Part shown: in pieces, positions 615 through 9,794 of the stretch
How positions within the stretch are numbered: position 1 is the stretch's first letter
Layout: each line of letters starts with the position of its first letter
NCBI RefSeq assembly: GCF_014224355.1
Contig: NZ_VNWP01000018.1
Coordinates: 1-43,913 of the forward strand
Direction: 5' to 3'
Source: Synechococcus sp. BSA11S
GTDB lineage: Bacteria > Cyanobacteriota > Cyanobacteriia > PCC-6307 > Cyanobiaceae
DNA: 43,913 bases
Notes under the pieces: model-generated
Seen by the model: only the letters and a program-made list of their open reading frames with translations
Told to the model about the DNA's origin: nothing
Databases searched by the model: none
Position numbers and translations under genes: made by a program

Positions 615-2201
615 TCAGCGCTCGAGCTGGCGCCGGATCGAGTTGATCAGCTCCTGCAGCTGCCGCCGTGCCGGCTCCACATCGGGCTGGTTCCGTTGCA
701 GGAGCACCACTCCATCGTCGAAGGCCTGCACGCCATAGTCCTCAGGCAAGGAGGCCAGTGCCTCGAGGCTGCTCTCCAGAGCTCTGCGATCGCTGAAAAA
801 AGCCACTCCGTAGCGACGCAGCCAATCAAGATCCACGGCGATCCAGTCGACGACTCTGTTGCCGCCCTGGCGATCCCTGTAGATCACACCGTTCGGAAAG
901 CGGATCAGCACCGGTCGCTGGGCCAGATGGGGAATCAGGGGGGTGTTGGCGGCCACACTGGCACCCTCGGGAATCAGGCTCACAAGCTCTCGGGCACTGA
1001 CCCCGTGGCTCCACTGGCGCGCTGGGGAGCTGTAAACCCAGGGCTCGACGCTGTCGGGAATCAGAAATGAGAGGCTGCGGTTGGGGTTGGCCAGCAGGGT
1101 GAACAGCAGGGAGAGTCCGATGCAACCGATCCAGAGCCGCCGCAGCCGCCGCCTCGCGAAGGCCTGGGGGTGGCGTCGCCACCATTCGATGGCCCCTGCG
1201 AACAGTCCGGGCACCACAAGCAGCGCGTAGCGGAGGTTGATCGAGAGGGGGTTGTTCGACCCCTGCGCCAGCAACAGGCCCAGAAGGGGCACGCCCATCA
1301 GCAGCCAACTGTCGAGGCTGATCAGCGGCACCAGCATCAGGGGCAGTCCCTGGGCCAGCAGGTAGCGCAAGGTCTCTGAAGGGGGCCAGATCAGTTCGCG
1401 CAGAACCACCAGGGGCTGGCGCAGGGCCTTGAGCAGCACCTCAAGGCTGCTGGCCTGCTCGGCGTCACCGATGTACTGGCCGAAGTTCTCCACCATGAAA
1501 CGGCGGGAGTTGTCGTCGCTGAACAGCGGCATCAACACGTTGGTCACCAGCAGCACCCAGCCCAGGCCGAGCGTGGCCAGTCCCAGGGCCAGGGCCCACT
1601 GCCGGCGCTGGCGCACCAGGATCCAGAGGCTGACCCCCAGCAGCAGCACACCGGTGTCCTCCCGGATCATCGGCACCGCCAGGGCAGCCACGGCCACCAG
1701 CCACCAGCGGCGCCGCTGCAGCCCGAACCAGAGCGCCAGGAAGGCCAGCGGCAGCTGGCAGAGGTCGGTGAAGTTCCCCCAGGTGGGGCCAATCACCGCA
1801 TTGGCGCCGTAGAAGCTGCAGGCCAGGAAGGCGGCCAGCCAGGGATCCTCCAGCCGTTCCCGGGCGATCCGGTGCAGCACCAGCCCCGCGGCCGTCATCA
1901 GACCCACCTGCACCAGCGGCAGCGCCCAGATCCCCAGCAGCCCCACCAGGGGCACCCACAGCAGCAGGGCCGGCGTGAAGTGTTGCCCCAGACGGTGATA
2001 TCCCAGGGAGGGAGGTTCCCCGGCGTGGATCACGTTGGTGGAGAGCTGGGAGGAGAGGGTGCTCTCGAAGGGATGGCCGTGCAGTCCGCTCCAGATCGTC
2101 TGCAGGAAAATTCCCTGGTCGTAGGAAGCGGTGAGCACCTGCAGCCGCCACCACTGCAGCAGCAGCCCCACCAGCGCGAACAGGGCAGCCGCCAACAGCA
2201 C
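615..2201 (-). CDS. DUF2079 family polytopic membrane protein
   Basis: The product is about 528 residues with many hydrophobic segments, typical of DUF2079 membrane proteins, a family of unknown function related in layout to GT39/GT83 lipid-linked sugar transferases. Early residues include LTASYDQGIFLQTIW, with the acidic position before the first extracytoplasmic loop that such transferases use. The C-terminal 120 residues are less hydrophobic and probably extracytoplasmic. The frame is open far upstream (to 2576), but that part overlaps the preceding gene. The first canonical start after that gene's stop is GTG 2201, placed just before the first membrane segment. It is the last gene of a three-gene unit with two GT39-like proteins. 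Substrate unknown. Confidence 0.8.
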   Translation of the reverse strand: MLLAAALFALVGLLLQWWRLQVLTASYDQGIFLQTIWSGLHGHPFESTLSSQLSTNVIHAGEPPSLGYHRLGQHFTPALLLWVPLVGLLGIWALPLVQVGLMTAAGLVLHRIARERLEDPWLAAFLACSFYGANAVIGPTWGNFTDLCQLPLAFLALWFGLQRRRWWLVAVAALAVPMIREDTGVLLLGVSLWILVRQRRQWALALGLATLGLGWVLLVTNVLMPLFSDDNSRRFMVENFGQYIGDAEQASSLEVLLKALRQPLVVLRELIWPPSETLRYLLAQGLPLMLVPLISLDSWLLMGVPLLGLLLAQGSNNPLSINLRYALLVVPGLFAGAIEWWRRHPQAFARRRLRRLWIGCIGLSLLFTLLANPNRSLSFLIPDSVEPWVYSSPARQWSHGVSARELVSLIPEGASVAANTPLIPHLAQRPVLIRFPNGVIYRDRQGGNRVVDWIAVDLDWLRRYGVAFFSDRRALESSLEALASLPEDYGVQAFDDGVVLLQRNQPDVEPARRQLQELINSIRRQLER

Positions 2202-2223
2202 GGCCCGCTCGGCCTGCTTCTGC

Positions 2224-3918
2224 TCAGCGGGCCGGGTTGGCAGGGTCCTTGGCTGGTCCTTCGCAGAGCCAGCGTTGCCAGTTGTCGTCACCGAGAGCCT
2301 CCAGGTCACAGGTGGAATCCTGAAGCCGCAGGCGTCCGGGGTTGCCAGGTTCCACTGTCCCGTGGCCGTCGCCACGGCGCAGCAGCACCCTGAAGCGGCT
2401 GGGCCAGTGGTCCCCAGGGCTGTCGGGAAGATTGAAGATCTCCTGCTCGGCGTACCAGCGAAGGCTGGGCCGCTGACCCTGGCGCTCAGGCATGTGGATC
2501 GGCAGGTCGCCGGCGGCGCCGGGCTTTCCGGCCTGTCGGGCCAGCTCCGCCGGCGGCAGCACCGATGACGTTTCATTCAATTCCCAGTTCCAGAACGGGC
2601 TCAGGAAGAACAGCAGCAACGAGGTGCACCACCCGAGCAGCAGCAGCCCCAGCCCCAGCCGACGCCGTGCCGGGGACTGCCGCACCAGGTTGATCCCCCC
2701 CAGCAGCAACCCAAGCCCTGCGGGCAGGGGCAACCAGCGGGCGCTGCTGAGCCAAGGGTCCTGCCCGACGAGCCAGGGGATCGGCAGCGAGGCCAGCAGG
2801 AAGGCCAGCAGCAACACTCCCCCCAGCAGAGCCCAGAACCAGGGCAGCCGCCCCAGCAACCCCCTTGGCCTTGGGCCGCTGTCCACCAGCCGTGCCAGCA
2901 CCGGCCCGCAGATCAGACAGAAGGGCGGCCAGAGCAGGAGGCTGTACCAGGGCAGCTGGGTCTTCATCGGCAGCACCGTGAGGCTGGCGGCCAGGGTGAG
3001 GCCCAGGCTCCAGCGCCCGGCCTGATGGCGCCTCTCACCCCAGGCCAGGCCCAGGCCGATGGGCCAGAGGGGGAGCCAGGGCCAACCGCCTTCCAGCACC
3101 TCCAGCAGGGGCTCAAGCGGACTGCCATGGTGCTCCTCCACCGTGGAGGTGAAGCGCAGCAGCCCCTGGCCGCCCCACATCAGCAGGGCCTCCTCTCCCC
3201 GCTGCAGGCCATGCCAGCCGTGCCAGGCCAGACCCACCGAGAGCCCAAGGGCCAGCCCCAGCGCCAACCGCATCCAGGCCTGCCGATCCAGATCGCGATC
3301 GAGCCAACGCAGCACCAGACCCGTGGCCAGCACCGGAAGCACCACAGGTGCCTTGAGCAGCAACAGTGCGCTGCCCGCGGCTCCCGCGATCAGACCGCCA
3401 GCCAGGGCTCTGCGAGGCCTGGGCGTGGCCAGCAGCAGACCCAGCCAGAGCAGGGCCATGGCACTCAGCTGGGCTCCATCGAGCATGGCCAACCGGCCGT
3501 GGCGAGCCAGGGGCATCAGGGTCAGGGCGATCGCCGCCGCACCAACGGCCGCCAGGGGTTGCCTGGGCCGCAGCCGCAGCTGAATCGCCCCGATCAACGG
3601 CACCAGCAGACTGGAGACCAGCGCCGGCGCGAGCCGGATCACCCAGTCGGGAGGGCGTGCGCTGGCCCCGCCCCCGAGGCCCTGCCAGAGCTGGATCACG
3701 CCGGCGATCAGCCAGTGCAGTCCCGGAGGCTTGTTGAGATAGGTGGATCCCCAAAACGTCGGCAGAAGAGTGTCTGGCCACGACGCCTGGCTGATCTCGA
3801 AGGCCACCCGGGCCACGATCCCTTCATCCCAGTCGCGCAGGGGCAGATTGCCCAGCCCGGCCAGGGCCAGCAGCAGGGCCACGGCCCAGAGCCCGAGCAG
3901 GGCGCGGCTGACTCTCAT
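2224..3918 (-). CDS. ArnT/GT39-like membrane glycosyltransferase
   Basis: The 564-residue protein starts with a membrane segment followed by LPLRDWDEGIVARVA, the acidic DxE-type motif of PMT/ArnT-like transferases that take sugars from polyprenyl phosphate carriers on the outer face of the membrane. At least ten more hydrophobic segments follow, then a soluble C-terminal part. The start ATG overlaps the upstream stop by one base (TGATG), so translation is probably coupled. The context of two related membrane proteins suggests stepwise glycosylation of an envelope component. Donor and acceptor cannot be read from the sequence. Confidence 0.82.
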   Translation of the reverse strand: MRVSRALLGLWAVALLLALAGLGNLPLRDWDEGIVARVAFEISQASWPDTLLPTFWGSTYLNKPPGLHWLIAGVIQLWQGLGGGASARPPDWVIRLAPALVSSLLVPLIGAIQLRLRPRQPLAAVGAAAIALTLMPLARHGRLAMLDGAQLSAMALLWLGLLLATPRPRRALAGGLIAGAAGSALLLLKAPVVLPVLATGLVLRWLDRDLDRQAWMRLALGLALGLSVGLAWHGWHGLQRGEEALLMWGGQGLLRFTSTVEEHHGSPLEPLLEVLEGGWPWLPLWPIGLGLAWGERRHQAGRWSLGLTLAASLTVLPMKTQLPWYSLLLWPPFCLICGPVLARLVDSGPRPRGLLGRLPWFWALLGGVLLLAFLLASLPIPWLVGQDPWLSSARWLPLPAGLGLLLGGINLVRQSPARRRLGLGLLLLGWCTSLLLFFLSPFWNWELNETSSVLPPAELARQAGKPGAAGDLPIHMPERQGQRPSLRWYAEQEIFNLPDSPGDHWPSRFRVLLRRGDGHGTVEPGNPGRLRLQDSTCDLEALGDDNWQRWLCEGPAKDPANPAR

Positions 3919-5831
3919 CAGCGCTCCTTCTTCAGCAGACTGGTCACGCGGCGGGTGGCATCGGGAACCGAACCGATGGCCCGCTGCAGGCTGAAGGGAT
4001 TGGCCATCAGGGCGCCGCTCACGTCGGAGAGGGCGTCCAGCACCGGCTCACGATGGCGCGGGGCCGCAGCGCTGGCCACGGCGTGGGCTCCCCAGGGGTT
4101 CCAGCCGGCCAGCAGCACCACGCTGCGGTAGGCCACCGGCCAGGGGTTCGCCGGCTCCAGGGTCTGGAGGCGGGCGAACCAACGCTCCGCCTGGTGTGGT
4201 CGGTTGCGGAGCACCGCCAGCAGTGCAAGGGTCCAGAGTGACTCACGATCGTCTGGATCCGCGCGCAGGCGCTGCTCGGCCCAGCTTTTCACCCGTTGCT
4301 GGTACTGCCAGTGACCGTCGAGCTGGTGCTGGGGCCCGATGGCCTCGAACACCGGAGCGAGACCTGCCGGACCTCGCCTCAGGCCCGAGGCCAGCGCGAT
4401 GAACCGGCGATCGAAGCGGGCCGAGTCCGCCACGGGCTGGCGGCGGGTCCAGAGCTCCACCGGCTCTCCGTCGCTCCAGGGCCAGCGGCCCACCAGCCGG
4501 AAGCGGGGGTCCTGGCGGATCGCGCCGGCCAACTCCCGGGAGGCCTCCCGCCGCATGCCGGCCTCACCGGTGGTGAGCAGAACCCACTCCGCCTGATCCA
4601 GCACCAGCTGACGCTCCCTGGACTTCCGCCCGAGCTGCCGCGCCACGATCTGACCTCCACGGGCCCGTCCAAGCACCGTAGCGGTGTGCTCATTGAGCTC
4701 CGCGGCATTGGGGAGCATCACCAGGGTGTGGGCCTGATCCCCCACCTGCTGGCGCATGGCATCCACCGCCTCAGGCAGGGGGGACCGGGGCTGCCAGCGG
4801 ATTTCCCTGGCCTGGGCCGCCATCGCGCCGCCGGCGCTGGCCACCAGGGCCAGGCCCAGAGCGCCGCCACAGGCGTGCCCCCAGCCACGCCTTTGCAGGG
4901 CCAGCCCCAGTTGCCACCAGCCCCGGCTCAGGATCAGCACCAGCAGGGGCAGCACCGGCGTGATGTAGCGGGGGTCCTTGTTGGGGCTGAGGGTCGTGAG
5001 CAGCCAGCCACTGAGGCTGCAACCGATCAACCAGCCCCAGCCCCGGCCGCCCGAGCCCTTGTCCCAGCGGGATTCCCAGGCGTTGATGATCGCCAACAGC
5101 CCGCCCACCAGGGCCGGCAGGCCATTGACCAGCCCCAGCTGCTGGGGCAAGAGCCTCGGATACCAGAGCAGGCCGGCCAGGCTGAACGGCGGCGGGTCAC
5201 CCTCCTGGGCCGCTGATTCCACCACCGCTCGATTGGTGCCTCCGATCGTGGTGATCCAGTTGTGCTGCAGCCAGGGGAGTACCAGGCTCAGCACCACCAC
5301 CAGGGCGGAGAGGGCCTGCCAGCGCCGTTGCCGCCGCCCCATCGCCCGGGCTGCCACCCAGAGGGCCGGCAGCAGCACGACAAGCAGGGCGCTCTGCTTC
5401 ACGAGAACGGCCGCCGCCAACGCCAGCGCGGCGGCGGTGGCCTGACTCCAGCGTCCGCCCCTGGGGTCTGGTGCAGCCCAGCGCCCCAGCAGCCAGAGGG
5501 CCAGCACACTGGTGGAGGCCAGGGGCAGATCCAGGGTGAAATCGGTCCGCAGGCTCAGCAAGGCCGGAGTGGTGCTGGTGAGAGCTGCCGCCAGCAGGCC
5601 GAACCCCGGTGACACCAGCTGGCGACCCCAGCAGGCGACGCTGACCAGAAGCAACCCCTGCCAGAGCGCCAGGGCGGCACTCGCCTGATCGGGGCTGTCG
5701 CCTGCCAGGGCGATCACCGTGCCATTCACCAGGCTCGCCAGTGGCGGCACCTTGGGGGAGAGGTCGAGCAGGGCCTGCCAGCCCCGCCAGCCCCCGCCGG
5801 GAATCAGTCCCAGGGCACGGCCGTGGTCCAC
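3918..5831 (-). CDS. GT39-like membrane glycosyltransferase with unclear start
   Basis: This is a polytopic protein related to the PMT/GT39 group, 637 residues from GTG 5831. The C-terminal third is soluble, with TPR-like helices (around DDRESLWTLALLAVLRN and HQAERWFARLQTLEP). The frame is open up to a TGA at 5991-5993. The upstream codons encode a convincing first membrane segment and the motif LPAWDQADYLNSA, which matches the catalytic acidic motif of the family. The true protein therefore very likely starts near 5975, but no ATG, GTG or TTG exists there; only CTG (5975) or ATC (5969) are available. The given 5' end is the first canonical start and probably truncates the N-terminus by about 45 residues. 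First gene of the three-gene unit. Confidence 0.75.
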   Translation of the reverse strand: MDHGRALGLIPGGGWRGWQALLDLSPKVPPLASLVNGTVIALAGDSPDQASAALALWQGLLLVSVACWGRQLVSPGFGLLAAALTSTTPALLSLRTDFTLDLPLASTSVLALWLLGRWAAPDPRGGRWSQATAAALALAAAVLVKQSALLVVLLPALWVAARAMGRRQRRWQALSALVVVLSLVLPWLQHNWITTIGGTNRAVVESAAQEGDPPPFSLAGLLWYPRLLPQQLGLVNGLPALVGGLLAIINAWESRWDKGSGGRGWGWLIGCSLSGWLLTTLSPNKDPRYITPVLPLLVLILSRGWWQLGLALQRRGWGHACGGALGLALVASAGGAMAAQAREIRWQPRSPLPEAVDAMRQQVGDQAHTLVMLPNAAELNEHTATVLGRARGGQIVARQLGRKSRERQLVLDQAEWVLLTTGEAGMRREASRELAGAIRQDPRFRLVGRWPWSDGEPVELWTRRQPVADSARFDRRFIALASGLRRGPAGLAPVFEAIGPQHQLDGHWQYQQRVKSWAEQRLRADPDDRESLWTLALLAVLRNRPHQAERWFARLQTLEPANPWPVAYRSVVLLAGWNPWGAHAVASAAAPRHREPVLDALSDVSGALMANPFSLQRAIGSVPDATRRVTSLLKKER

Positions 5832-6104
5832 GGCACTGTTGAGGTAGTCGGCTTGATCCCAGGCCGGCAGCCGCTGGTCGAGATGAAGCCAGAGCCTGTC
5901 GGCCAGTGTGCCCGCCAGCCAAAGGGCCGCCAGGGCCAGCCACCACAGCCAGGGGCGTTGGGACCGGATGTTCAGGGCCTTGGCGGCGGTTCAGGCCAGT
6001 GTGGACCAGCTGCCCTCCCCGTAGCCGTTGTGCGTTCTGTCACACCTGCACGGGCTGCCCGCAGGGCTGGGGGTGATTCTTCATGCAGGCGCATCGCGCC
6101 AACT

Positions 6105-6114
6105 TGTGTGAGGA
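6105..6114 (+). promoter_or_regulatory. Yfr1 target site over the ribosome binding site of porin 1
   Basis: TGTGTGAGGA is perfectly complementary (10 bases) to the core of the Yfr1-like RNA at 7836-7849. It includes the AGGA ribosome binding site and ends four bases before the ATG at 6119. In Prochlorococcus MED4, Yfr1 is known to repress two porin mRNAs through exactly this kind of pairing. Pairing here would block initiation. Confidence 0.75.
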
Positions 6115-6118
6115 CCCA

Positions 6119-7786
6119 ATGAAATTCTTCCGGCAACTCCTGCTGGCACCTGTCGCCCTCGGACTGATGGCCCCCGTGGCCGCCACCGCAGGCGAAATGA
6201 ACCTCGACGGCATCAACCAGTACGCCGCCTCCGAGGACCAGGTCACCAGCATCACCCAGTTCTCCGACGTGCAGCCCACCGAGTGGGCCTACCAGGCGCT
6301 CTCGAACCTGATCGAGCGCTATGGCTGCGTCGCTGGCTACCCCGATGGCACCTTCCGCGGCAAGAAGCCGCTGAGCCGCTGGGAAGCCGCTGCTCTGCTC
6401 AACGCCTGTCTCGATCGGATCACCGAGGTGACCGACGAACTGCGCCGGCTGATGAAGGAGTTCGAGAAGGAACTCGCCATCCTGCGCGGCCGGGTCGACA
6501 ACCTCGAGGCCAAGGTCGGTGAGCTGGAGGCCAACCAGTTCTCCACCACCACCAAGCTGCGTGGTGTGGCCACCTTCACCATCGGCGCCAACAGCTACAA
6601 CGGTGACGCTCGCGCCAGCATCGCCGAGTCCCTCGCTCTTGGAAGCACAGACCGTGGAGAGCGTGGCAGCTTCCTGGATCGCAAAGTGTTCCCTGGTGAG
6701 AAGTTCGCTGATGCCGCTGCGTTTCAGCAGGGTGCCACTGCCTTCAACTACAACCTCGACCTCTACCTCGACACCAGCTTCACCGGCAAGGACCTGCTGC
6801 GCACCCGTCTGCGTGCCGGCAACTACGGGGGTAGCCCCTGGGGTGCCGCCAATCCCGACAACCTGGTGGGCCTGAACGCCTTCGAGGTGGCCTTCGAGGG
6901 TGGCAGCGGTGCTGATTCCGTCGAAGTCAACCGTCTCTTCTACCAGTTCCCCCTGGGCAAGAGCTTCACCGCCACCATCGGCGGCAAGGTCCGTCAGGAC
7001 GACATGCTGGCCTTCTGGCCCAGCGTGTACCCCTCTGACACCGTCCTCGACATCTTCACCTACGGCGGTGCTCCCGGCACCTATCCCCTGACCCTTGGCT
7101 CAGGTGGTGGTATCTGGTGGAAGAGCGGCGGCTTCAGCGTCAGCGCCAACTACGTGGCCGCCAACGGCAACCTGGGTAACCCCAATGACGGTGGCATCGG
7201 CACCGATGGATCCGCCCAGAGCGGCACCGCTCAGATCGCCTGGAACAACGACAACTTCGGCATCGCCGCCGCCTACACCTACCTCACTCCCGAGGGCGGT
7301 CAGGCCGGTCTCTATGGCGGTAACGGCACCCCCCTGGCCAACCTCGGGTATGCCCTCTCCGATAGCGTGAATTCCGTTGGCATCAGCGGCTACTGGCAGC
7401 CCTCCAACTCCGGCTGGCTCCCCTCGATCAGCACCGGCTGGGGCCTCAACGCCCACAGCTCCGACAATTTCGATGAGATTGACGGTGCACAGACCCAGTC
7501 CTGGTACGTGGGTCTCCAGTGGTCTGATGTCTTCATCAAGGGCAACGACTTCGGCATGGCCGTGGGTCAGCCCACCTTCTTCACCAAGTCGGGTGACGAC
7601 GACATCCTCGAGGCCAACGACGGCAACTATGCCTGGGAGTGGTGGTACAAGTTCCAGGTGACCGATAACATTTCCGTCACCCCGGCTCTCTTCTACCTGA
7701 GCGTCCCCCTGGGTCAGCTCCAGAAAAACGACAGCGACTCCTTCGACAACTTCGGTGGCCTGGTCAAGACCACCTTCAAGTTCTGA
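6119..7786 (+). CDS. Outer-membrane porin with SLH domain (Som/OprB-type), copy 1
   Basis: The 555-residue precursor has an N-terminal signal peptide ending near ATAG (residue 25). An S-layer homology domain follows at about residues 48-105 (FSDVQPTEWAYQALSNLIE, GYPDGTFRGKKPLSRWEAAA), then a coiled-coil linker (105-137), and a beta-barrel of the carbohydrate-selective/iron-uptake porin type, ending in a terminal F (TTFKF) as expected for Bam-dependent insertion. It forms a channel in the outer membrane, with the SLH part binding the cell wall. ATG 6119 is chosen because the signal peptide starts there and AGGA precedes it. Its SLH-encoding DNA is almost identical to copy 2, while the barrels differ. 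Regulation by Yfr1 is likely. Confidence 0.92.
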   Translation: MKFFRQLLLAPVALGLMAPVAATAGEMNLDGINQYAASEDQVTSITQFSDVQPTEWAYQALSNLIERYGCVAGYPDGTFRGKKPLSRWEAAALLNACLDRITEVTDELRRLMKEFEKELAILRGRVDNLEAKVGELEANQFSTTTKLRGVATFTIGANSYNGDARASIAESLALGSTDRGERGSFLDRKVFPGEKFADAAAFQQGATAFNYNLDLYLDTSFTGKDLLRTRLRAGNYGGSPWGAANPDNLVGLNAFEVAFEGGSGADSVEVNRLFYQFPLGKSFTATIGGKVRQDDMLAFWPSVYPSDTVLDIFTYGGAPGTYPLTLGSGGGIWWKSGGFSVSANYVAANGNLGNPNDGGIGTDGSAQSGTAQIAWNNDNFGIAAAYTYLTPEGGQAGLYGGNGTPLANLGYALSDSVNSVGISGYWQPSNSGWLPSISTGWGLNAHSSDNFDEIDGAQTQSWYVGLQWSDVFIKGNDFGMAVGQPTFFTKSGDDDILEANDGNYAWEWWYKFQVTDNISVTPALFYLSVPLGQLQKNDSDSFDNFGGLVKTTFKF

Positions 7787-7814
7787 CCGAGGCTGATCAC
7801 TTGATCAGCCTCGG
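7787..7814 (+). terminator. Perfect 13-bp hairpin directly after porin 1 stop
   Basis: CCGAGGCTGATCA at 7787-7799 and its exact complement at 7802-7814 flank a 2-base spacer, beginning at the base after the stop codon. There is no T tract, so it is more a 3'-end stabiliser or attenuator than an intrinsic terminator. It separates porin 1 from the Yfr1-like RNA. Confidence 0.65.
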
Positions 7815-7823
7815 CTGATCTCT

Positions 7824-7900
7824 CCAACCAGATCAACTCCTCACACACCTTGATCTGGCTGGACTAGCTCAAAAGCCGTGGCGCCAGCCACGGCTTTTTT
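7824..7900 (+). ncRNA. yfr1: Yfr1-like small regulatory RNA
   Basis: ACTCCTCACACACC at 7836-7849 is the ultraconserved core of Yfr1, a cyanobacterial sRNA. It is mostly displayed as a 13-base loop on a long stem (7824-7836 with 7850-7862, one mismatch). A perfect 12-bp terminator hairpin follows (AAAAGCCGTGGC 7871-7882, GCCACGGCTTTT 7887-7898, then T). Total size about 77 bases, slightly longer than published Yfr1 RNAs as I recall them. The core pairs perfectly with the ribosome binding sites of both neighbouring porin genes. No convincing -10 box was seen just upstream, so it may start inside the hairpin at 7787-7814 or be processed from the porin 1 transcript. Confidence 0.88.
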
Positions 7901-7993
7901 GTTTTGAGCTGGTCGTTCTGAAGAGCCATTGGGATGTGATCGTCGACACCCAGCCATGTGCTCTTGGCTGGAGGGCTTGATCCTCAACGTCGA

Positions 7994-7999
7994 TAAAAT
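7994..7999 (+). promoter_or_regulatory. Possible -10 box of porin 2
   Basis: TAAAAT within an unusually AT-rich patch, 46 bases before the porin 2 ATG. No good -35 hexamer at 16-18 bases spacing. It would give a leader of roughly 40 bases containing the Yfr1 site. Confidence 0.4.
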
Positions 8000-8032
8000 C
8001 TTTAGGCGTCCTTCGGGGCCATCCCTCAATCG

Positions 8033-8041
8033 GTGTGAGGA
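8033..8041 (+). promoter_or_regulatory. Yfr1 target site over the ribosome binding site of porin 2
   Basis: GTGTGAGGA, perfectly complementary (9 bases) to the Yfr1 core, covers the AGGA ribosome binding site and lies four bases before ATG 8046. It is the same element, at the same distance, as in porin 1. Confidence 0.75.
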
Positions 8042-8045
8042 TCGA

Positions 8046-9734
8046 ATGAAAGTGTTTCAGCGTCTGCTGCTGGCGCCAGCCGTCCTAGGGCTGGTAGCCC
8101 CCATGGCCGCTTCGGCCGGGGATCTCAACCTTGACGACATCAAGAAGTATTCGGGCAACACGAAGAACCAGGTGACAAGCATCACCCAGTTCTCCGATGT
8201 GCAGCCCACCGAGTGGGCCTATCAGGCGCTCTCGAACCTGATCGAGCGCTATGGCTGCGTCGCCGGCTACCCCGATGGCACCTTCCGCGGCAAGAAGCCG
8301 CTGAGCCGCTGGGAAGCCGCTGCTCTGCTCAACGCCTGTCTCGATCGGATCACCGAGGTGACCGACGAACTGCGCCGTCTGCTCAAGGAGTTCGAGAAGG
8401 AACTCGCCATCCTGCGCGGCCGGGTCGACAACCTCGAGGCCAAGGTGGGTGAACTGGAGGCGACCCAGTTCTCCACCACCACCAAACTCAAGGGTAAGGC
8501 CACCTTTGTGGTGGGAGCTGTCAATGCCAGTGGTGATCGTCCCGGTGCCGGCGTCTTCGGTTCGTCGCCCACCTTTGGCAGCCGTGATGCTGCTGAAAAG
8601 TACAATGCTCAGTACGGTGCCACCACATTCAACTACGATTTAAGGCTGGAGCTTCTAACCAGCTTCACCGGCAAGGACCTCCTCTTCACCCGTCTGCGTT
8701 CCGGCAACTTCGATAATGCCTTCAGTGGTGATGGAGTCAATCTCACCGCCCTTGATGTCGCGAGTGGCGGCATTGGTGGAACCGATTCCATCGGTGTCGA
8801 CCGTCTCTACTACCGCTTCCCTGTAGGCCGCGATTTCACGTTCATCCTTGGCCCCAAGGCCCGTAATACGGAGTCCGTGGCCGTTACCCCTTCCTTGTAC
8901 GGCACCGGGGGAGGCGACAAGATTCTGGATGTCTTCCAGCTCTGGGGTGCTCCGGGCGTCTACAACAAGGCCACCGGGGCACTGGGGGCTGTGATCTGGA
9001 AGCAGAATGTTGAGAAAGGCCGTGGTCGGTTCAGCGCCTCCGCCAGCTACGTCGCTCAGCAGGGAAGCTCCGGTCAGGCCTTCGATGGCAACGAGAACGT
9101 CTGCTCCAGCAGCGAAGGCGGCATCGGCACCGACTGTGCCCGTGGCAACTTCCTGGCCCAGCTGAACTACACAGCCCCCCAGTGGAACGTGTCGCTGGCC
9201 TACCGCTATGGCCAGAAGGCCACCAACTTCCGCCGGGGCACGAATTTCGTGGCCAGCAACAGCTGGTTCCTGGTGGATGGTGAGTCGAACAACTTCGCCG
9301 CCAACGCCTACTGGCAGCCCAAGGAAAGTGGTTGGATCCCCTCGATCAGCCTCGGCTGGGGGATCAACAGTCTCTCCGGGAACAGCAACAATGCCCTGGG
9401 GGTGGAGTTCGTTGAGCCCTATGTGACCACGAGCCAGAGCTGGTTCGTGGGCCTGCAGTGGAGTGATCTGTTCGCCAAGGGCAATGCCGCCGGCATGGCG
9501 GTCGGTCAGCCTGTCTTCGCCACGGCCCTCTCCCGCGGCAGCAGTGACTCCGGCAGCACCACCCCCGCCGATGGCAACTACGTCTGGGAGTGGTGGTACA
9601 AGTTCCAGGTCACCGACAACATCGCCGTCACCCCCGCGATCTTCTACCTGAGCCGTCCGCTGGGACAGCTCACCGGCGACGACAACAGCTTCAGCAACTT
9701 CGGTGGTCTCGTGCAGACCAGCTTCAAGTTCTGA
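8046..9734 (+). CDS. Outer-membrane porin with SLH domain (Som/OprB-type), copy 2
   Basis: The 562-residue precursor has a signal peptide ending near ASAG, an SLH domain, a coiled-coil linker and a porin barrel ending in QTSFKF. The first ~150 residues match copy 1 closely and the DNA at 8178-8485 differs from 6248-6555 at only about ten positions. The barrel is clearly divergent, with different loops and two cysteines in a short loop (about residues 357-367). Different barrels behind the same wall anchor suggest different solutes. ATG 8046 is chosen by signal peptide and binding site. The early barrel part (about 8500-8650) uses some codons rare for this GC-rich DNA, such as TTA and CTA. Confidence 0.92.
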   Translation: MKVFQRLLLAPAVLGLVAPMAASAGDLNLDDIKKYSGNTKNQVTSITQFSDVQPTEWAYQALSNLIERYGCVAGYPDGTFRGKKPLSRWEAAALLNACLDRITEVTDELRRLLKEFEKELAILRGRVDNLEAKVGELEATQFSTTTKLKGKATFVVGAVNASGDRPGAGVFGSSPTFGSRDAAEKYNAQYGATTFNYDLRLELLTSFTGKDLLFTRLRSGNFDNAFSGDGVNLTALDVASGGIGGTDSIGVDRLYYRFPVGRDFTFILGPKARNTESVAVTPSLYGTGGGDKILDVFQLWGAPGVYNKATGALGAVIWKQNVEKGRGRFSASASYVAQQGSSGQAFDGNENVCSSSEGGIGTDCARGNFLAQLNYTAPQWNVSLAYRYGQKATNFRRGTNFVASNSWFLVDGESNNFAANAYWQPKESGWIPSISLGWGINSLSGNSNNALGVEFVEPYVTTSQSWFVGLQWSDLFAKGNAAGMAVGQPVFATALSRGSSDSGSTTPADGNYVWEWWYKFQVTDNIAVTPAIFYLSRPLGQLTGDDNSFSNFGGLVQTSFKF

Positions 9735-9773
9735 TTCTCTGCTTCACTGCAAGCACCCCTCACACCCCTCCTT

Positions 9774-9794
9774 GCCCCCGTCAGGGGGCTTTTT
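9774..9794 (+). terminator. Intrinsic terminator after porin 2
   Basis: GCCCCC and GGGGGC pair around a GTCA loop and are followed by five T, 40 bases after the porin 2 stop. Confidence 0.88.

Follow-up and report, generated by a model that had tools for sequence, protein, structure and literature searches.

A hairpin carrying the Yfr1 motif lies in the 3′ untranslated region (3′ UTR) of a porin gene, porin 1, of Synechococcus sp. BSA11S, and its loop is complementary to the ribosome-binding sites (RBS) of both this gene and the paralogous porin 2 gene downstream. Within the 43,913-nt stretch of DNA analyzed here (the window), this arrangement points, with somewhat better than even confidence, to a Yfr10-like anti-RBS RNA in the porin 1 3′ UTR, most likely released, that would repress both the porin of its parent gene and the paralogue. 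Porin transcription would yield a 3′ end that is most likely cut off as an ~75-nt Yfr10-like small RNA (sRNA), release by an RNase being assumed. The sRNA would pair over 9 to 10 nt with the RBSs of porin 1 and porin 2 and block translation. In this manner the porin mRNA would supply the RNA that represses it, and the resulting negative feedback would also couple the two paralogues. The element would add to the global repression exerted by the separate Yfr1 RNA and might be titratable by a Cyano-1/Yfr2-like RNA of the same genome.

The two porins share 53 to 54% identity, and the features of their locus are collected in Table 1. The start of porin 1, which we take to be SomA-like, was chosen from its conserved leader and N terminus. 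The sequence GTGTGAGGA occupies 6106-6114 and 8033-8041 and is followed in each case by 4 nt and then an ATG (6119 and 8046). The window holds three copies, one of which is simply the motif's own complement, against 0.44 expected, and three were reached in 2 of 100 shuffles; it is the placement before an ATG that makes GTGTGAGGA nonrandom. In the 2.88-Mb genome, GTGTGAGGA-N2-9-ATG occurs three times and the looser GTGTGAGG-N3-9-ATG 14 times, and porin 1 and porin 2 account for two of the occurrences in each set. A third porin (contig C34) has neither a GTGTGAGG leader nor a CCTCACA within 180 nt after its stop. Six genomes show strong conservation in the region upstream of porin 1 (window 5980-6118), with GCCGTTGTGC, TTCTGTCACA, and GATTCTTCAT as examples; no -10-like TANNNT box was noticed in it, and it is perhaps a regulator site. 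Adjoining the porins at 618-5831 (-) are a DUF2079 membrane protein and two PMT-like glycosyltransferases in a row, one of the latter scoring above and one just below the Pfam cutoff.

Table 1. Features of the porin locus in window coordinates
Feature	Position (strand)	Evidence and remarks
Porin 1 ribosome-binding region TGTGTGAGGA	6105..6114 (+)	10 nt complementary to the 3′ UTR loop; invariant in 6/6 aligned genomes
Porin 1	6119..7786 (+)	SLH + OprB family; Pfam OprB 1.7e-14, SLH 9.7e-9
Stop-proximal hairpin CCGAGGCTGATCA/TGATCAGCCTCGG	7787..7814 (+)	Without T run; CTGATC-type hairpin kept in relatives
Yfr10-like hairpin	7824..7862 (+)	13-bp stem, arms 7824-7836 and 7850-7862
13-nt hairpin loop CTCCTCACACACC	7837-7849 (+)	Carries the anti-RBS motif; motif unpaired probability 1.0
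Intrinsic terminator	7871..7901 (+)	Sequence and terminator scan; kept in five aligned relatives
TAAAAT, likely -10 box of porin 2	7994..7999 (+)	TANNNT here in 6/6 aligned genomes
Porin 2 ribosome-binding region GTGTGAGGA	8033..8041 (+)	Complementary to the hairpin loop and to Yfr1
Porin 2	8046..9734 (+)	SLH + OprB family; Pfam OprB 1.4e-17, SLH 9.5e-9
Second anti-RBS element ACCCCTCACAC, porin 2 3′ UTR	9755..9765 (+)	One mismatch to the motif; mean unpaired probability 0.74
Porin 2 terminator GCCCCC-GTCA-GGGGGC-TTTTT	9774..9794 (+)	Sequence and terminator scan

The motif ACTCCTCACACACC at 7836-7849 (+), of which positions 7836-7846 are the 11-nt Yfr1 motif ACUCCUCACAC, is the single copy in the window, and 0 of 100 shuffles contain one. 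Folding of 7816-7902 gives -39.3 kcal/mol (z = -7.35; matched by 0 of 200 shuffles). In this fold the loop atop a long stem is occupied by the motif alone, and the terminator comes behind. The hairpin begins 37 nt past the porin 1 stop and lies in the porin 1 3′ UTR, and the terminator would be the common end of the porin 1 mRNA and the hairpin RNA. Porin 2 is followed by a simpler version, a largely unpaired motif plus a terminator. Read from the sequence, either porin's 3′ UTR can pair over 8 to 10 consecutive Watson-Crick base pairs with both leaders.

The initial annotation had called this RNA Yfr1. The positions that it gave for the motif and for the leader complements are exact, the complements standing 4 nt before both porin ATGs, and its core observation, an element with the Yfr1 motif between two porin genes whose RBSs it complements, holds; the identification as Yfr1 does not, and is ruled out by the fold of the element, by its Rfam score, and by a true Yfr1 encoded on another contig. 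In Yfr1 the motif is single stranded between two stem-loops, at a locus that is usually, though not always, guaB-trxA (PMC2190773), whereas in Yfr10 it sits in a loop atop a stem (PMC6778093). Here the motif is apical in a 13-bp stem, not unpaired between a 5′ stem-loop and a terminator, and the neighbors are porins, not guaB and trxA. At Rfam gathering scores nothing matches in the window, Yfr1 (RF01116) included, and at an E value of ≤10 the region 7700-8100 gives no RF01116 match; Yfr10 (RF02362) appears there at 18.0 bits, where the gathering score is 43, alongside other matches at chance level. The genuine Yfr1 (G000:C8:18329-18339(-); L003:1475-1531 (-)) scores 61.1 bits with RF01116 (gathering score, 38) and is flanked by guaB (TIGR01302, 1.4e-29, below the curated cutoff) and by a trxA open reading frame (ORF) recognized by its WCGPC site. 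The loop fold, the Rfam result, and the separate true Yfr1 therefore identify the window element as a second, Yfr10-like carrier of the Yfr1 motif in this genome. The 11-mer also occurs at C1:130091, as the complement of a Cyano-1 RNA, and at C40:132180, where it overlaps predicted ORFs on both strands. Separately, an identical string, GTGTGAGGTCTTGGGATG, is found four times in the genome (contigs C4, C13, C33, and C42) and may belong to a repeat or a mobile element.

Yfr1 provides the known case of this motif acting on porins. Yfr1 is almost universal in cyanobacteria, with porins as verified targets; it targets two porin leaders in Prochlorococcus MED4 and represses a PMM1121 porin leader fusion 4.7-fold in Escherichia coli (PMC6778093). 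The window element resembles Yfr1 in its 11-nt motif and in having two porin leaders as complements, and resembles Yfr10 of Prochlorococcus and marine Synechococcus in the placement of the motif atop a stem and in the terminator-like hairpin that follows in the Rfam alignment. Yfr10 homologues share little besides the motif, and Yfr10-type copies are described as lacking conserved synteny (PMC6778093). Yfr10 is adjacent to yfr2 in high-light Prochlorococcus, whereas the window element, a predicted RNA, is in a porin 3′ UTR.

Five same-genus genomes (G001, G002, G005, G006, and G008) retain the order porin-hairpin-porin, which the initial annotation had described as porin-Yfr1-porin. Across these five and the window, GTGTGAGGA precedes porin 1 in 6/6, GTGTGAGG precedes porin 2 in 6/6, the loop CTCCTCACACAC is kept in 6/6, and CCTCACAC follows porin 2 in 5/6. 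In the remaining same-genus genomes (G003, G004, and G007) the exact 13-mer was not found behind a porin, but CCTCACA occurs in all three, at most 69 nt from a porin-type end. At the 13-mer-bearing loci of other genera, tblastn detected no adjoining porin except at L029 (G044); there the motif and a porin are ~190 nt apart on opposite strands.

To place the element in its family, GTDB genomes were scanned with porin 1, and the best 80 of 141 relatives gave 75 distinct named loci; among the relatives listed, the nearest are Synechococcus J7-Johnson, Cruz-7E5, WH 5701, CS-1329, 1G10, and RedBA-s and Cyanobium CZS48M. These loci and the window hold 130 porin ORFs, of which 14 were left out as cut or short of flank; of the 116 usable porins, 86 have a GTGTGAGG leader (leader positive) and 30 do not (leader negative). 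Exact CCTCACA is present within 100 nt past the stop in 48/86 leader-positive and 0/30 leader-negative porins and in 2/356 other long ORFs, the 7-mer having been settled on after the 3′ UTR listing was viewed and variants such as CCTCACG being excluded; these simple counts are inflated by relatedness, as 24 of the 30 leader-negative porins fall in one clade of 27. In the same interval, CCTCACAC is found in 34/86, 0/30, and 0/356, respectively, and the shorter CCTCAC in 53/86, 2/30, and 9/356. Dinucleotide shuffles of the 86 leader-positive sequences contain CCTCACA in a mean of 1.8 (maximum, 7) and CCTCACAC in a mean of 0.6 (maximum, 4), and the reversed 8-mer CACACTCC occurs in 1/86 leader-positive 3′ UTRs. 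Of the 48 loci that have a leader-positive porin, 33 contribute a motif-bearing one; 38 of the 86 leader-positive porins lack CCTCACA.

The initial annotation had also remarked that dosage, transcription, and possibly readthrough would be linked in such a locus, which points in the right direction, as the element is in the porin 1 3′ UTR and is likewise found behind porins across the family. A motif serving solely for readthrough into a following porin is ruled out: 17/34 leader-positive porins that are last or single carry it, compared with 28/45 that have a porin next downstream (3/7 where too little sequence is available).

Chance, or shared ancestry without function, might produce such an association. 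The clade that holds most leader-negative porins inflates the contingency, and the two groups differ in 3′ UTR base composition, since CACTCC, a fragment of the reversed motif, is also commoner behind leader-positive porins (13/86 versus 0/30; P = 0.02). Against this stand the shuffle, other-gene, and reversed-motif controls as well as the retention of the loop structure while stems change, and we regard the explanation as disfavored already and extremely improbable. On the porin tree, seven independent contrasts have the motif going the same way as the leader in two to four and never the opposite way, a result that with so few contrasts is not significant by sign test.

Structure was compared over 51 copies of the motif, whose mean unpaired probability is 0.90. 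In 20/51 copies a stem of ≥7 bp displays the motif in its apical loop, as against 28/1,530 with shuffled flanks. These 20 copies have 12 different inner 7-bp stems, and stems differ between clades; within the window's clade, four of these inner stems are shifted or near-identical forms, and some of the rest look unrelated to the window's stem. At the seven inner stem positions, four pair types are seen at six and three at one. Many other copies lie between stop and terminator with no enclosing stem. In a simple scan of the 48 motif-bearing leader-positive porins, the first terminator-like hairpin comes after the motif in 37 and before it in 7, with none found in 4. At three loci (L077, L084, and L087) a single porin is followed by two tandem anti-RBS copies; a hairpin loop displays the first, and the second is largely unpaired.

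Perfect complementarity of at least 8 nt to the leader of a leader-positive porin is found in that porin's own 3′ UTR in 42/86, in the 3′ UTR of one random other leader-positive porin in 40/86, and in that of either a random leader-negative porin or a random other gene in 0/86. Matches of this length are shared among leader-positive porins and are consistent with a trans-acting, porin-wide repressor in porin 3′ UTRs, and hence with negative feedback, although on their own they do not set release from the mRNA apart from independent transcription or from pairing in cis. Raw RNAduplex energies of leader versus 3′ UTR are alike for self (-29.07), other leader-positive (-28.81), and leader-negative (-29.77) pairs and are probably dominated by GC-rich stretches. 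In 26 dereplicated 3′ UTRs, flanks are little conserved and the match extends past the 7-mer, the next base being C in 21/26. A C after CCTCACAC is seen in 6/21 copies behind G-leaders and 0/13 behind T-leaders (P = 0.06), so that base-by-base covariation of leader and 3′ UTR at the motif edges is suggestive only.

The comparison of own and other leader-positive porins bears on pairing in cis, in which the 3′ UTR would fold back on its own 5′ leader, as in icaR of Staphylococcus, and block initiation or create a double-strand cut site. Both icaR of Staphylococcus aureus and the porins have an anti-Shine-Dalgarno motif in the 3′ UTR of the gene that it matches (PMC3868564), a precedent and a placement that speak for this mechanism. 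However, no preference for self was found (own versus other leader-positive porin, P = 0.46), and display in a hairpin loop resembles, by our inference, the seed of a trans-acting RNA. Moreover, icaR pairs in cis through a long 3′ UTR, whereas the porin elements are short, often loop displayed, and complementary to paralogues too. Pairing in cis is in our judgment improbable.

A further possibility, though a rather unlikely one, is an independently transcribed Yfr10-type sRNA gene that has its own promoter, stands behind a porin by chance, and represses porins in trans. The loop architecture is that of Yfr10 (PMC6778093), the MED4 Yfr10 has been mapped as an RNA of 78 nt (PMC2518516), and some sRNAs from 3′ ends, ApcZ among them, are transcribed from their own promoters (PMC9438474). 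The gap from stop to hairpin leaves little space for one: it spans 15 to 45 nt across the 20 loci with a loop-borne motif, and many motifs lie 10 to 25 nt past the stop, with scant promoter room outside coding sequence. A TANNNT is missing from the 60 nt upstream at 19/20 loci, but this is uninformative, as dinucleotide shuffles expect 1.55/20. The absent -10 box was accordingly dropped as proof of processing: the deficit against mononucleotide shuffles (1/20 observed versus 13.06; 0/28 versus 14.99) shrinks to nothing much under dinucleotide shuffles, which expect just 1.55/20 and 1.21/28. TANNNT is present in 31/356 other ORF ends, and in porin leaders it shows no excess (40/86 versus 46.9 shuffled).

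The genome also encodes a Cyano-1 RNA (RF01701; L002:1446-1515 (-), contig C1 near 130091; 48.3 bits, gathering score 41), which carries GUGUGAGGAG, the complement of the Yfr1 motif, and which we take to correspond to the Yfr2 family. This RNA might antagonize Yfr1 as well as the porin 3′ UTR element. Yfr2 is described to bind Yfr1 and Yfr10 (PMC6778093). The same two facts would fit a decoy, in which the 3′ UTR motif soaks up Yfr2/Cyano-1-type RNAs with GUGUGAGGAG or similar sequences, frees or spares Yfr1, and matches the leader as a side effect. A decoy gives no reason for the motif to stand behind porins with a GTGTGAGG leader and not behind leader-negative ones, and we consider it very unlikely.

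Porin genes with a 3′ element matching their own RBS suggest that these outer membrane channels may limit their own production. Extended to the family, the preferred reading is that porin mRNAs of Cyanobium-like and freshwater Synechococcus would each release an sRNA repressing itself and its paralogues, with the Yfr1/Yfr10-type element repeatedly gained, lost, or rebuilt on new stems; we put this forward tentatively, at somewhat less than even confidence. The nearest parallels are OppZ and CarZ, autoregulatory sRNAs derived from 3′ UTRs in Vibrio cholerae, in which an mRNA 3′ element is complementary to the translation start of its own transcript (PMC7398697). Location in a 3′ UTR and complementarity to the gene's own translation start are both found here. 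Processing and repression are shown for the Vibrio RNAs (PMC7398697), whereas we infer them for the window element, and the porin elements differ further in being one shared motif behind many genes. ApcZ of Synechocystis likewise derives from an mRNA 3′ end in a cyanobacterium but regulates another gene (energy dissipation), and the passages cited report no action on its parent (PMC9438474).

Among the matches listed for open-licence PMC papers, judged by titles and the starts of abstracts, there is no report of a link between the motif and porin 3′ UTRs. If true, the proposed feedback would, as far as our searches show, represent the first cyanobacterial class of 3′ UTR autoregulatory sRNAs. 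Yfr10-like sRNA genes might have arisen from such elements, and a mode of autoregulation demonstrated in Vibrio would be extended to a phylum only distantly related. The reproducible association of motif and porin 3′ UTR offers a direct, cheap test of RNA feedback on outer membrane channels of freshwater and brackish picocyanobacteria.

The wider distribution was surveyed in 300 genomes drawn evenly from the family, with TTCAAGTTCTGA, a common porin end, as the anchor and matches not individually confirmed as porins. CCTCACA follows TTCAAGTTCTGA at 8 to 38 nt in 64/300 genomes and at 39 to 69 nt in 41/300, for a combined 91/300 (14 in both); the reversed 7-mer is found at 8 to 38 nt in 5/300, one of these overlapping a real motif. 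Genomes of group g18 had no match in either distance range, the exact GC-type ending being required, so that AT-rich genomes could be missed; the Yfr1 of this group (L032) is similar to the Prochlorococcus MED4 sequence given in PMC2190773.

In the loci recovered from 12 further family genomes, 16 non-own porin ORFs were recognized, 4 of which have CCTCACA within 180 nt (L128, L148, L149, and L150). Leaders with GTGTGAGG or TGTGAGG are present in 11/16, and 3 of these 11 have the motif; at L150 the motif is present with a variant leader, GTGTGAGA. Three 1.8-Mb genomes (G011, G018, and G029) have five porins with a leader (four GTGTGAGG and one TGTGAGG) and none with the motif, which implies that feedback is not essential. 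Because porins of the further genomes often have the leader without the motif, the leader looks older than the 3′ element, which would be a later addition, gained or lost repeatedly; motif gain and loss amount to 18 changes on the porin tree.
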